DNA of 64,000 nt from Wenjunlia vitaminophila DSM 41686 (GTDB lineage Bacteria > Actinomycetota > Actinomycetes > Streptomycetales > Streptomycetaceae): contig NZ_KB904724.1 of the NCBI RefSeq assembly GCF_000380165.1, positions 257 to 64,256 on the forward strand, written 5' to 3'. Positions 21,917 to 35,127 of the stretch are shown in pieces; position 1 is the stretch's first letter; each line of letters begins with the position of its first letter. The notes beneath the pieces were generated by a model. It saw nothing but the letters and a program-made list of their open reading frames with translations, did no database searches and was not told where the DNA came from. Made by a program: the position numbers and the translations under genes.

Positions 21917-21989
21917 GGGGCTATAGCTCAGTTGGTAGAGCACTTGCATGGCATGCAAGGGGTCAGGGGTTCAAATCCCCTTAGCTCCA
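21917..21989 (+). tRNA. tRNA-Ala (GGC), copy 1
   Basis: Cloverleaf: acceptor GGGGCTA with TAGCTCC (one G-U pair), D arm GCTC...GAGC, anticodon stem CTTGC/GCAAG with loop ATGGCAT giving anticodon GGC, and T arm with GGTTCAAATCC. Discriminator A; the CCA end is not encoded. It reads GCC, the dominant alanine codon here. Followed by a strong intrinsic terminator. Confidence 0.97.
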
Positions 21990-22033
21990 CAGGACGACCG
22001 TCCTCGGGTCAGCTCGGGGTGAGTCGGTCAGAT

Positions 22034-22214: not shown

Positions 22215-22287
22215 GGGGCTATAGCTCAGTTGGTAGAGCACTTGCATGGCATGCAAGGGGTCAGGGGTTCAAATCCCCTTAGCTCCA
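22215..22287 (+). tRNA. tRNA-Ala (GGC), copy 2
   Basis: All 73 bases are identical to the copy 298 bases upstream, with different flanks, so it is a duplicate gene with its own promoter and terminator. The CCA end is not encoded. Confidence 0.97.
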
Positions 22288-22306
22288 CTCGTTTTGACCT
22301 GACCGG

Positions 22307-23824: not shown

Positions 23825-23830
23825 TACCCT
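23825..23830 (+). promoter_or_regulatory. -10 box of the leuS leader transcript
   Basis: TACCCT six bases before the ATG of the leader mini-ORF. The predicted transcript starts at that ATG. Confidence 0.55.
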
Positions 23831-23836
23831 ACGGGT

Positions 23837-23875
23837 ATGCGATCCGTGCGCCGTCTGCTTAGTCGGCCGCGCTGA
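23837..23875 (+). CDS. leuS leader peptide, 12 codons
   Basis: A leaderless mini-ORF encoding MRSVRRLLSRPR. Two adjacent leucine codons (CTG CTT, 23855-23860) end five bases before a helix arm that contains the stop codon. CTT is a rare choice in this GC-rich sequence. It is followed by an intrinsic terminator and then leuS. Classical attenuators have been predicted before leuS in some Streptomyces by comparative work, which supports a leucyl-tRNA-sensing role here. Confidence 0.65.
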   Translation: MRSVRRLLSRPR

Positions 23876-23987
23876 CCAGGACCGATCCGTGGCCCTGCCA
23901 GACCGTGATCCGCGAGAAGGCGAACCACCAGGGTGATCCGCCGGCTCGCGGGGCCGTGGCGGGCTCCGGGCTCGGAGTCAGCGCGGC
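23866..23987 (+). promoter_or_regulatory. leuS attenuator helices
   Basis: An 11-bp perfect long-range helix pairs 23866-23876 (end of the leader ORF) with 23977-23987, right before the terminator. A competing pairing of 23950-23956 with 23984-23986 and 23990-23993 (seven bp around a three-base bulge) would use both the terminator left arm and the helix right arm. A ribosome stalled on the leucine codons would cover the first arm and favour this antiterminator. The pairings are seen; the mechanism is inferred. Confidence 0.6.
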
Positions 23988-23988
23988 G

Positions 23989-24014
23989 TCCCCTCCTGAG
24001 CGGGGGGATTTTTT
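23989..24014 (+). terminator. intrinsic terminator in the leuS leader
   Basis: The stem TCCCCTC/GGGGGGA (one G-U pair) with a six-base loop is followed by six Ts. It is the only hairpin with such a T-run in the window, and it stands between the leuS promoter and the leuS start. Confidence 0.85.
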
Positions 24015-24123
24015 GTTGGCCGCGGCCGGCCCGTGACGGGTCCGAGCCCGCCCGTGAACCATGACGAACCGGCCGGCAGGCGTCGCATCCGATCGCCGTG
24101 ATCCCGATGGAGTTCCCAGGACG

Positions 24124-27003
24124 ATGAGCGAGACCACCTCGGCCACTGAGCCGCAGCAGACCGCGACCCAGAAGTACACCGCGGAGTTGGCCGCGCGGAT
24201 CGAGGCGCGCTGGCAGGACGAGTGGGAGCGGCGGGGCACGTTCCAGGCCGCCAACCCCGCCGGGTCGCTGGCCGGTCCCGGCGCCACGGCCCGCCCACCC
24301 GCGTACATCATGGACATGTTCCCCTACCCGTCCGGGGCGGGACTGCACGTCGGGCACCCGCTGGGGTACATCGCCACCGACGTCTACAGCCGCTACCTGC
24401 GGATGACCGGGTACAACGTGCTGCACACCCTGGGCTACGACGCGTTCGGCCTGCCCGCGGAGCAGTACGCGGTGCAGACCGGCACCCACCCCCGGGTGAC
24501 CACCGAGGCCAACATGGTCACCATGCGCGCCCAGTTGCGCCGTCTGGGCCTGGGGCACGACAGCCGCCGCTCCGTCGCCACCATCGACCCGGGGTTCTAC
24601 CGGTGGACCCAGTGGATCTTCCTGAAGATCTTCGAGTCCTGGTACGACCCGGAGCAGGACCGGGCGCGGCCCATCGCCGAGCTGGTCGAGGAGTTCGCCT
24701 CCGGTGCCCGCCCGGTGCCCGGCGGTCGCCCCTGGGGAGAGCTGGACGCGGTCGAGCGCTCCGCGGTGCTGGACGACCACCGTCTGGCGTACGTCAAGGA
24801 GGCGCCGGTCAACTGGTGTCCGGGTCTGGGCACGGTGCTGGCCAACGAGGAGGTCACCGCGGACGGCCGGTCCGAACGCGGTAACTTCCCCGTGTACCGG
24901 GCCAGCCTGCGGCAGTGGATGATGCGCATCACCGCGTACGCCGACCGCCTGCTGGACGACCTGGACCTGTTGGACTGGCCGGAGGCCATCAAGCTGCAAC
25001 AGCGGAACTGGATCGGCCGCTCCGAGGGCGCCCGGGTGGAGTTCCGGCTGGACGCCGCGGGTGGTGAAGACGACAAGATCGTCGTCTTCACCACCCGGCC
25101 GGACACCCTGTGGGGCGCCACCTACATGGTGCTGGCGCCCGAGCACCCCCTGGTGGACCGGATGGTGCCCGCGCGCTGGCCGGAGGGCACCAGGGAGGCG
25201 TGGACCGGGGCCGCTCCCACCCCCGCCGCAGCGGTGGCCACGTACCGCAGGCAGGCCGCGGCCAAGTCCGACGTGGAGCGGCAGGCCGAGGCGAAGGACA
25301 AGACGGGGGTCTTCACCGGGGCGTTCGCGGTCAACCCGGTCAACGGGGAACGCATCCCGATCTTCATCGCCGACTACGTGCTGATGGGCTACGGCACGGG
25401 CGCGATCATGGCCGTGCCGGCCCACGACCACCGCGACTTCGCGTTCGCCCGGGCCTTCGAGCTGCCCATGCGGTGCGTGGTGCAGCCCGGCGACGACCGT
25501 GGCCAGGACCCGCGGACCTGGGACGACGCGTTCGTCTCGCACGACGCGCGGATCGTCAACTCGTCCGGCTCCGACATCTCGTTGGACGGCCTGGGCGTGG
25601 CCGAGGCCAAGGCGCGGATCACCGCGTGGCTGGCCGAGCGGGGCATCGGCGAGGGCACCGTCAACTACCGGCTGCGGGACTGGCTGTTCAGCCGGCAGCG
25701 CTACTGGGGCGAGCCGTTCCCGATCGTCTACGACGAGGACGGGGTGCCGCACCCGCTGCCGGCCTCCATGCTGCCCGTCGAACTGCCCGAGATCGATGAC
25801 TACGCGCCGCGCACCTTCGACCCGGACGACGCCGACTCCCGGCCGGAGACGCCCCTGTCCCGGAACAAGGAGTGGGTGGAGGTCACCCTGGACCTGGGCG
25901 ACGGCCCCAGGCAGTACCGCCGGGAGACCAACACCATGCCCAACTGGGCCGGCTCGTGCTGGTACGAGCTGCGGTACCTGGACCCGGACAACGACGAGCG
26001 GTTGGTCGACCCCGAGGTCGAGCGGTACTGGATGGGGCCCCGCACCACCGGTGGCTCGGGCGGCGCCGACCTGTACGTGGGCGGTGCCGAACACGCGGTG
26101 CTGCACCTGCTGTACGCCAGGTTCTGGCACAAGGTGCTGTACGACCTGGGGTACGTCTCCTCCAGGGAACCGTTCCACCGCCTGTTCAACCAGGGCATGA
26201 TCCAGGCGTACGTCTACCGGGACGAGCGCGGGTTCCCGGTGCCCGCCACCGAGGTCGTCGAGGAGGACGGCGGCTTCTGGCACGACGGCCAGCCGGTCCG
26301 CCGCGAGCTGGGCAAGATGGGCAAGTCCCTGAAGAACTCCGTCACCCCGGACGAGATCTGCGCCGAGTACGGGGCCGACACCCTGCGCCTGTACGAGATG
26401 GCGATGGGGCCGCTGGACGTCTCCCGCCCCTGGGAGACCAGGGCCGTCGTCGGCTCCTACCGCCTGCTGCAACGCCTGTGGCGCAACGTGGTGGACGAGG
26501 CCACGGGTGAGGTCGTGGTCACCGACGAGGAGCCGGACGAGGAGACCCTGCGCGCCCTGCACAAGGCGATCGACGGCGTGCGTGCCGACATGGAGGGGCT
26601 GCGCTTCAACACCGCCGTCGCCAAGGTGACCGAGCTGAACAACCACCTGACCAAGCGGGGCTCGGTGCCGCGTTCCGTCGCCGAGCCGCTGGTCCTGATG
26701 ATCGCGCCGCTGGCCCCGCACATCGCCGAGGAGCTGTGGCGGCGGCTGGGGCACACCGAGTCGCTGGCCCACGAGCCGTTCCCGGTGGCGGACCCGGCAC
26801 TGGTGCAGGACCCGACGGTGACCTGTGTGGTGCAGGTCAAGGGCAAGGTCCGGGCACGGATCGAGGTGCCGGCGACGATCGGCGACGGCGACCTGGAGGC
26901 CCTGGCGCTGGCCGACCCCGCGGTGCGCAGGGCGCTGGGTGACGCCCAGGTCCGCAAGGTCGTGGTCCGGGCGCCCAGGCTGGTGAACGTGGTCCCGGGC
27001 TGA
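24124..27003 (+). CDS. leuS: leucyl-tRNA synthetase
   Basis: Charges tRNA-Leu. A 959-residue class I synthetase of bacterial type: the HIGH-like site is in [18 protein letters not shown], a CP1 editing domain lies at about 250-500, [13 protein letters not shown] is part of it, and the KMSKS-like site is in [12 protein letters not shown]. It ends with the anticodon-binding domain and the C-terminal [14 protein letters not shown] segment. ATG 24124 (MSETTS) is preferred over ATG 24061, which adds 21 atypical residues. Expression is probably controlled by the attenuator described upstream. Confidence 0.97.
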
Positions 27004-34305: not shown

Positions 34306-35127
34306 ATGCCCACTCTATCGCGGGAGCAGCCAGAACCGGCGCCGCCGCACCGGGCTCGGCGGGTGGCCGAGTCGTTCGGCGTGGCCGCTGAACGCTACGA
34401 CCTGGCCCGGCCCGGCTACCCCGACGGCCTGGTGGCGCGGATCGTGGCCGGGAGCCCGGGCCCCGACGTGCTCGACGTCGGGTGCGGGACCGGCATCGCG
34501 GCGCGCCAGTTCCAGGCCGCCGGCTGTGCCGTGCTCGGTGTCGAGCCGGACGTGCGGATGGCCAACCTCGCCCGGGCCCGCGGCCTGCGTGTCGAGGTGG
34601 CCACCTTCGAGGCGTGGGAGCCGACCGGCCGGGTGTTCGACGCACTGGTCGCCGCCCAGTCCTGGCACTGGGTGGACCCCGCCGTCGGCGCCGTGAAGGC
34701 GGCCCGGGTGCTGCGTCCGAACGGGCGCCTGGCGATCTTCGGGCATGTGCTCGAGCCGCCTGTCGAGGTGGCGGAGCCCTTCGCCGTCGCCTACCGTCGG
34801 GTGGCGCCCGACTCCCCGTTCGGCAACCAGCCGGCGCGACGCCCACTGGACGCCTACCAGGCGGGGTACGCGCGGATCGCGGACAACATCCGCGAGACGG
34901 AGCAGTTCGACGCCCCCGAGCAGTGGCGGTTCGACTGGGAGCGGTCCTACACCCGGGACCAGTGGCTGGACCTGCTCCCCACCACCGGCGGCCTCACCCG
35001 TCTTCGTTCCGACCAACTGGCCGAGGTGCTGGGCGCGGTGGGAGACGCCATCGACGCACTGGGTGGCCGCTTCACGATGCGGTACACCACTCTGGCAACC
35101 ACCGCCGTCCGCGCCGGCACCCCGTGA
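34306..35127 (+). CDS. class I SAM-dependent methyltransferase
   Basis: A 273-residue Methyltransf_11-type enzyme. SAM motif I is VLDVGCGTGIAARQF, an acidic residue follows in VLGVEPD, and AAQSWHWVDP is the post-motif region typical of the family near residue 110. The C-terminal half is specific to this group and gives no substrate. The ATG sits six bases after a TAAAGT box, so the mRNA is probably leaderless. It is divergent from, and presumably controlled by, the TetR protein. Confidence 0.85.
   Translation: MPTLSREQPEPAPPHRARRVAESFGVAAERYDLARPGYPDGLVARIVAGSPGPDVLDVGCGTGIAARQFQAAGCAVLGVEPDVRMANLARARGLRVEVATFEAWEPTGRVFDALVAAQSWHWVDPAVGAVKAARVLRPNGRLAIFGHVLEPPVEVAEPFAVAYRRVAPDSPFGNQPARRPLDAYQAGYARIADNIRETEQFDAPEQWRFDWERSYTRDQWLDLLPTTGGLTRLRSDQLAEVLGAVGDAIDALGGRFTMRYTTLATTAVRAGTP

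Follow-up and report, generated by a model that had tools for sequence, protein, structure and literature searches.

How the leuS gene of Wenjunlia vitaminophila DSM 41686, encoding leucyl-tRNA synthetase, could be made to respond to the supply of leucine is the question raised by the region upstream of this gene on contig NZ_KB904724.1 (the whole stretch analysed, 64,000 nt, is called the window below). The region carries a short open reading frame (ORF) with leucine codons, a long-range helix, here named P1, that starts just behind these codons, and an intrinsic terminator that directly follows P1. Comparison with approximately 170 leaders from many actinobacterial families leads us to a reading that we judge as apt to be right as wrong: the leader would be an attenuator that senses charged tRNA-Leu by way of a leaderless leader peptide, the stalled ribosome masking P1 where it meets the terminator. 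The arrangement probably switches leuS on when charged tRNA-Leu is low.

A leuS attenuator as such is already known. Attenuators before leuS were predicted in two species, Streptomyces coelicolor and Streptomyces avermitilis, in 2005 (PMC1262725), as had been noted in the initial annotation of this locus, and the leader LeuL2 of Streptomyces lividans TK24, MRAVRLLLSEPR, was reported by RNA-seq to be transcribed without a leader and to be followed by a terminator (PMC8079986). No description was found in the literature of the spread of such leaders through the class, of the codon and spacing rules set out below or of a missing antiterminator, in a search mainly of open-access papers.

Architecture of the leuS leader

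A TACCCT box with an ATG six bases downstream, the adjacent codons CTG CTT, an 11-bp helix and a terminator with six Ts had been proposed from the letters of the sequence, and direct reading found each of them in its place (Table 1). The leader ORF reads ATG CGA TCC GTG CGC CGT CTG CTT AGT CGG CCG CGC TGA. In a repeat search, P1 was returned as a 100% complementary inverted repeat of 11 bp with its arms 100 nt apart; it starts exactly 5 nt 3' of the CTT codon. A terminator scan of the leader gave three overlapping matches against 0.1 expected from shuffled sequences, while the folding of the leader was only moderately more stable than that of shuffles (z = -2.22). No Rfam family, T-box riboswitches included, was found over 23825-24014 at E <= 5, and none at the gathering score. 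Judged from its sequence, the leader fits the leuL2 family of Streptomyces, with a 12-codon leucine ORF before leuS, a leaderless-type start and then a terminator.

Table 1. Predicted elements of the leuS leader and the gene behind it (positions in the window)
Feature	Position	Strand	Remarks
-10-like box TACCCT	23825..23830	+	ATG of the leader ORF six bases on; assigned by conservation among leaders
Leader ORF MRSVRRLLSRPR, predicted leaderless	23837..23875	+	12 codons and stop; read from the sequence and from the orthologue in S. lividans
Presumed sensor codon CTT	23858..23860	+	leucine codon adjoining P1; preceded by CTG, 23855-23857
P1, 5' arm	23866..23876	+	spans the last ORF codons and the stop codon
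P1 loop	23877..23976	+	100 nt; own hairpin 23910-23929 / 23932-23951; contains the 5' strand 23950-23956 of a competing pairing proposed earlier
P1, 3' arm	23977..23987	+	terminator directly 3'
Intrinsic terminator	23988..24014	+	stem 23988-23995 / 24002-24009; six Ts 24009-24014
leuS, leucyl-tRNA synthetase	24124..27003	+	presumed controlled gene; NCBIfam TIGR00396, 903 bits against a cut-off of 548

The loop of P1 is merely short in the sister species Wenjunlia tyrosinilytica (L022; L numbers are our handles for loci), and the 20-nt imperfect hairpin within the window loop is not present there. The 5' arm and loop of the terminator (23990-23997 in the window, and in its relatives) read CCCCTCCT, which includes the anti-Shine-Dalgarno core; other families differ at this place.

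A presumed sensor codon at a nearly constant distance from P1

The counts given here are for leuS leaders, four loci before citramalate synthase-like genes (cimA) having been removed. Leaders L230 and L195 run into contig ends and are left out of the ORF table of 169 rows; L020, with a miscalled terminator, and L249, L260 and L264, in which no terminator was called, were also dropped where stems were counted. The leaders are related by descent, and the counts are not independent events.

The leucine codon that adjoins P1 is CTT in 160 and CTC in nine of the 169 tabulated leaders, and with the two at contig ends (CTT in L195, CTG in L230) CTY is found in 170 of 171, although the Leu columns of the covariance model described below could favour the recovery of CTT leaders; of 40 leuS regions without a match, 39 contained no other boxed leucine ORF. 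Conservation of the leucine codons in relatives, which the initial annotation had put forward as a check on its proposal, is therefore borne out. Among the leucine codons of 23 long ORFs of the window (two of them on the minus strand, one overlapping a plus-strand ORF), CTG accounts for 66% and CTT for 0.9%; CTG is also the codon just before the presumed sensor codon in 82 of the 169 leaders. CTT and CTC share one tRNA, with the anticodon GAG.

When the stretch from the end of the ORF to the terminator was scanned for its best helix, at start offsets from -9 to +26, P1 was found to begin at +5 after the sensor codon in 131 of 166 leaders and at +4, +3 or +6 in 25, nine and one, respectively. 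The stop codon is far less fixed, lying 3 nt (18 leaders), 12 nt (137), 15 nt (2) or 18 nt (2) after the sensor codon and, more rarely, at 21 nt (1), 24 nt (1), 27 nt (7) or 30 nt (1). Since the offset of P1 is nearly constant while the stop codon moves, the ruler runs from the sensor codon to P1 more than from the stop codon to P1.

P1 and the terminator covary and abut

In an alignment of 28 leaders made with MAFFT, P1 and the terminator together had 96% paired cells, against 38-53% when slid. Five of their pairs had changed on both sides, which was reached by 3 of 500 shuffles; the covariation score was reached by none of the 500, and the count of further pair types was not above chance (168 of 500). 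A set of 100 leaders from other families, which includes four cimA leaders and was aligned by fitting to the structure, showed double changes at 13 of 17 pairs, in 128 cells compared with a shuffled mean of 21.8. When arms were swapped between 117 distinct leaders, those of P1 and those of the terminator were far better matched in their own leader than after swapping (0 of 2000 resampled means as low). Two of the three helices for which covariation had been suggested as a check thus pass it in both sets of leaders.

The two helices also lie side by side. The gap between them is 0-2 nt in 158 of 166 leaders when the arms are held fixed and in 153 of 166 when P1 is maximally extended, the stems including pairs with the U run; with fixed arms four of the 166 overlap, with maximal P1 11 of the 166 do so by 1-2 nt, and the window shows no overlap. 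The 5' arm of P1 begins with a nearly invariant GCCG(C), which is paired next to the terminator. An automatic scan called a terminator in all but three of 170 leaders (L249, L260 and L264). The ORF, P1 and a hairpin are present in L249 and L264, with no clear T run behind the hairpin.

Most parts of a classical attenuator are therefore in place: a leader ORF, predicted to be translated, with codons for the regulated amino acid (leucine beside P1 in 169 of 169 tabulated leaders), a protector helix over the end of the ORF, namely P1, and an intrinsic terminator before the structural gene. The leader had been called a complete-looking attenuator, a description that the comparison does not support as a whole: its leader peptide, first helix and terminator are borne out, and no antiterminator was found in the family.

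Search for an antiterminator

In a classical four-segment attenuator, masking of P1 would free its 3' arm to pair with the loop or the 5' arm of the terminator; in the variant proposed for the window, 23984-23993 would pair with 23950-23956. We consider such a mechanism improbable for these leaders, even though antiterminators were drawn for two Streptomyces species (Seliverstov 2005; PMC1262725). Swap, shuffle and folding tests found no antiterminator across the leader family. Eight pairings of the P1 3' arm, the P1 5' arm, the Leu region or the loop region with the terminator or the P1 3' arm showed no co-evolution in the 117 distinct leaders (fractions 0.18-0.85), in a test that loses power where arms are nearly invariant. 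One candidate, promising in Streptomyces, pairs the terminator loop with the P1 3' arm; six pairs are possible in many Streptomycetaceae, and some folds show it. In its own leader the arm fitted the loop no better than after swapping (with 100 distinct pairs, the observed value was attained in 879 of 1000 permutations), and the hairpin was stronger than one made with the arm shuffled in no more than 11 of the 23 distinct leaders of Streptomycetaceae and 21 of the 94 from elsewhere. A pairing of the leucine codons with the terminator loop, found in one fold of the window leader, did not co-evolve across the family, nor did an anti-P1 hairpin inside the ORF, the 5' part of which pairs with nothing in particular. 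On the RNA that a stalled ribosome would leave free, RNAalifold predicted only four pairs, those of the terminator (67 of 116 leaders). Many P1 loops, with a median of 23.5 and a minimum of 2 nt over 166 leaders, are too short to hold a partner strand; the 100 nt of the window are the longest of all.

The idea that masking of P1 alters the terminator at equilibrium was rejected as well: with the 11 nt after the leucine codon masked, the mean terminator probability was 0.95, against 0.93 unmasked (167 leaders). Before the 3' arm of the terminator exists, pairing of its 5' arm exceeded one half in 21 of 166 leaders with P1 masked and in eight without masking, which is too few for a general antiterminator.

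In the window leader, masking of P1 lifts the equilibrium terminator probability from 0.42 to 0.89 and raises the pairing of the terminator 5' arm, before the 3' arm exists, from 0.10 to 0.81. Because of the second of these rises, which favours the four-segment scheme here, a private antiterminator could still act in this genome. The competing pairing of 23950-23956 with 23984-23993, drawn in the initial annotation as the third helix, can form (-9.6 kcal/mol, compared with -23.0 for P1) and could act privately in this way. As an antiterminator of the family it fails: it lies within the 100-nt insert, is absent in W. tyrosinilytica and is not conserved.

Proposed mechanism and points that weigh against it

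In the mechanism that we prefer, transcription would begin at or beside the leader ATG, and a 70S ribosome would translate the mini-ORF, with the conserved CTT or CTC codon 3-6 nt 5' of P1 as the sensor. With ample charged tRNA-Leu, the ribosome would pass and leave, P1 would fold flush against the terminator, and most transcripts would end before leuS. With a given codon in the A site, a ribosome occupies roughly nine bases 3' of it. Under a shortage of charged tRNA-Leu, a ribosome halted at CTY in this way would accordingly mask the spacer together with the four or five 5'-most bases of P1, GCCG(C); the masked P1 would lose its contact with the terminator, and read-through into leuS would increase. 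An intact P1 that helps termination rather than hindering it is the favoured option. The direction given in the initial annotation, in which stalling blocks the first helix and read-through follows, would agree with this. The comparative evidence covers the ORF, the sensor codon, its spacing, P1, the terminator, their adjacency and the lack of a conserved antiterminator among the pairings searched; from it we infer the stalling of the ribosome, the direction in which P1 acts and the physical basis on which an adjoining helix would aid termination.

Several observations weigh against this mechanism. A further leucine codon follows the one adjoining P1 in five of 94 leaders, as CTC in the spacer (L208, L228 and L259) or as CTG or TTG inside P1 (L249 and L253), and L230 has CTG at the sensor position. 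The equilibrium folds described above do not respond to the masking of P1 over the set of 167 leaders, and helices can lie side by side without any mutual influence. Under strong starvation leuS might stay uninduced, because a stall at the first of three leucine codons would leave P1 free. Replacement of the control codons in the ilvB leader of S. coelicolor had no effect, according to Seliverstov 2005 (PMC1262725), and relatives of that leader examined here have the same architecture as the leuS leader.

The last point also favours an alternative in which the terminator is leaky, either constitutively or independently of codons, so that the ORF is translated and its leucine codons are irrelevant in vivo. 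We regard this as improbable, and slightly more so than the four-segment scheme: the leucine codons, CTY and the spacing are conserved across families, and changing LVVI to AAAA abolished the induction of Mycobacterium tuberculosis ilvB1 (PMC13236596).

The main rival assigns P1 the opposite role and is, in our opinion, unlikely, though a more serious candidate than the two others. P1 would be an antiterminator, too close to the terminator for the RNA exit channel to hold both; a ribosome halted at the first leucine codon would leave P1 free and give read-through, and a ribosome at the stop codon would cover P1 and give termination. The narrow gap between the helices (0-2 nt in 158 or 153 of 166 leaders, as given above) suits this scheme, as do the stop codons at 3 or 12 nt after the sensor codon in 155 of 169 leaders, where a terminating ribosome, with the footprint generally ascribed to it, covers the whole arm. 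It is harder to reconcile with the constant distance being that to the P1-adjoining leucine codon, nearly always CTY, whereas the first leucine codon varies in place and identity. Stop codons lie 24-30 nt downstream in nine of 94 leaders; a ribosome terminating at such a position would not cover the outer part of P1, an argument against the switch being the stop codon. An overlap with the terminator is seen in only four of 166 leaders, or 11 of 166 by 1-2 nt when P1 is fully extended. Evidence from Corynebacterium glutamicum points both ways. The helix in the corresponding place of its ilvBNC leader, which shares 3 nt with the terminator, has been named an antiterminator (PMC11857589), a sign opposite to that favoured here, and this counts for the rival and against our mechanism. 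P1 as an antiterminator would also predict read-through without a ribosome, yet expression falls by 80% when the start codon of this leader is abolished (cited in PMC11857589), a drop that a further hairpin in this leader may explain.

Predicted leaderless start and -10-like box

For the first 75 leaders a TANNNT box was a search criterion, and therefore only the 94 found later can test it. In all 94, with six offsets allowed, such a box lies 6 nt (63) or 7 nt (31) before an in-frame start codon, whereas shuffled upstream regions gave such a start in 47 of 1880 trials. The start codon is ATG in 126 and GTG in 43 of the 169 leaders. A strict sigma-70 scan of the window leader found no promoter (0.0 expected), so that the assignment of the -10 box rests on its conservation. 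From its spacing we infer a transcription start at or beside the leader ATG of the window. The initial annotation had proposed a leaderless leader ORF and considered that this makes the timing of ribosome loading unusual: the leaderless-type start is supported, and the claim of unusualness is only half right, since the orthologue in S. lividans had already been reported to be leaderless by RNA-seq (PMC8079986).

Distribution among actinobacteria

A boxed leucine ORF was found in 75 of 81 leuS upstream regions (the window and 80 named loci). It is present in 66 of 66 regions of the Streptomycetaceae type (the window and 65 named loci, two of which are labelled only "Actinobacteria bacterium") and in nine of the 15 others, from a metagenome-assembled genome of Micromonosporaceae, Austwickia, Geodermatophilaceae, Lentzea and an Intrasporangiaceae bacterium; of these 15, it was not found at three Aeromicrobium loci or in Sediminivirga, Brevibacterium and Gordonia. 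The typical leader peptide is MRAVRLLLS(E/G)PR.

A covariance model built on the 28 leaders matched 24 of 149 genomes of the phylum at E <= 0.1, the weakest of which may be chance matches, and 160 of 374 genomes and 70 of 134 genera of the class at E <= 0.05, some of them with cimA leaders (four seen). A search at E <= 10 (297 of 297) is not counted as evidence because of that threshold. Among the matches listed, 100 places outside the family of the window were examined: leuS lies downstream at 95, a citramalate synthase-like gene at four and a contig end at one. The first aligned LeuS residue follows 18-305 nt after the model match at the 95 loci. In 40 chosen leuS upstream regions from genomes without a match (in four of which, L300, L302, L303 and L305, the LeuS start was not placed), a boxed leucine ORF was absent from 39; the exception, L273, has the ORF and a weak match.

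At the loci L167-L266, the leader precedes two divergent types of LeuS, with approximately 33-47% and 61-76% identity to the N-terminus of the window protein. One genome (G625) holds both types, each behind a leader of its own (L175 and L176). The leuS leader may outlive the replacement of its gene.

Leaders of ilvB and cimA

The genome of the window has a comparable leader, MRTRILVLGWRVG followed by a stop codon, approximately 256 nt before ilvB (L309). The ilvB set comprises 32 loci (L309, L310 and L311-L340), of which five were not parsed, their terminator stem ending differently, one (L314) is a chance match and one a duplicate. An ilvB-like gene is present at 29 of 30 loci with the pattern, all but L314. 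The 25 distinct ilvB leaders of the family that were parsed, the one from the genome of the window among them, all have CTT (24) or CTC (1) as the last control codon, a four-base spacer, a helix of 10-13 bp and a terminator gap of 0. A scan of ilvB that required a TANNNT box found nothing, and the leaders were found once this requirement was dropped; in four ilvB loci scanned, no such box lies at the usual distance from the start.

Four loci of one family (L261, L262, L263 and L265) were seen by reading to have isoleucine codons (such as ATC ATT ATC), four bases, a helix and a flush terminator. The gene behind L262 is citramalate synthase-like, TIGR00977 being the best match of a partial protein that stays below the full-length cut-off, and the genes behind the other three were assigned by the similarity of their translations. 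No description of cimA leaders was found in the literature, the search having returned only a paper on a methanogen.

The leaders of leuS, ilvB and cimA could thus represent a separate attenuator design, for and against which we see the balance as level: no antiterminator would be involved, and a ribosome at a fixed sensor codon would toggle a helix that abuts the terminator. The switch would then lie in the contact of adjacent helices, or in their competition for space in RNA polymerase, and not in an exchange of base pairs.

Implications

If this holds, attenuation is possible with two abutting helices and a ruler of approximately five bases, and the recognition of attenuators would change in GC-rich genomes, where searches seek competing hairpins. 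A single testable account would serve leuS, ilvB and cimA leaders and could bear on the ambivalent earlier results in Streptomyces. It would mean control of an aminoacyl-tRNA synthetase by a leader peptide in 70 of the 134 genera of the class that were sampled, roughly one half; Firmicutes rely mostly on T-boxes instead (PMC1262725).

Neighbouring features of the window

Two tRNA-Ala (GGC) genes with equal Rfam scores lie upstream of the leader, at 21917-21990 and 22215-22288, approximately 225 nt apart. An 88-nt tRNA-Glu (ctc) was called by ARAGORN at 34443-34530, a place for which Rfam gave no report at the gathering score.

Comparison with known systems

The trp and leu attenuators of Escherichia coli combine control codons, a terminator and a first helix that includes the end of the leader ORF. 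The leuS leader differs from them by its leaderless start, and no competing 2:3 helix was found in it. Leaderless sensing ORFs before metabolic genes are also known from the polycysteine upstream ORFs of mycobacteria (Canestrari 2020, via a citing paper), which the citing paper, unlike our reading of leuS, describes as translation attenuation.

The closest relative is leuL2 of Streptomyces (PMC8079986; PMC1262725), with the same gene, the same place, a 12-residue ORF of the same family, a leaderless start and a terminator with a U run. The ORF of the window has two adjacent leucine codons instead of three, arginine replacing the first, and its P1 encloses the 100-nt loop; the description of 2005 counts an antiterminator (PMC1262725), which was not found to be conserved in the leuS leaders analysed here.

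In the ilvBNC leader of C. glutamicum, the helix and the terminator share three bases and an anti-antiterminator has been proposed (PMC11857589), whereas in the leuS leaders the helices mostly abut without overlap, no conserved third helix was found, and the three shared boundary bases of a "fast" attenuator of the C. glutamicum type are not a feature of the family. The likeness between the two lies in a conserved CUU control codon directly ahead of a helix that extends as far as the terminator (PMC11857589; the ilvB-II motif, PMC10272879) and in a start codon that, in C. glutamicum, is located one base from the transcription start (PMC11857589).

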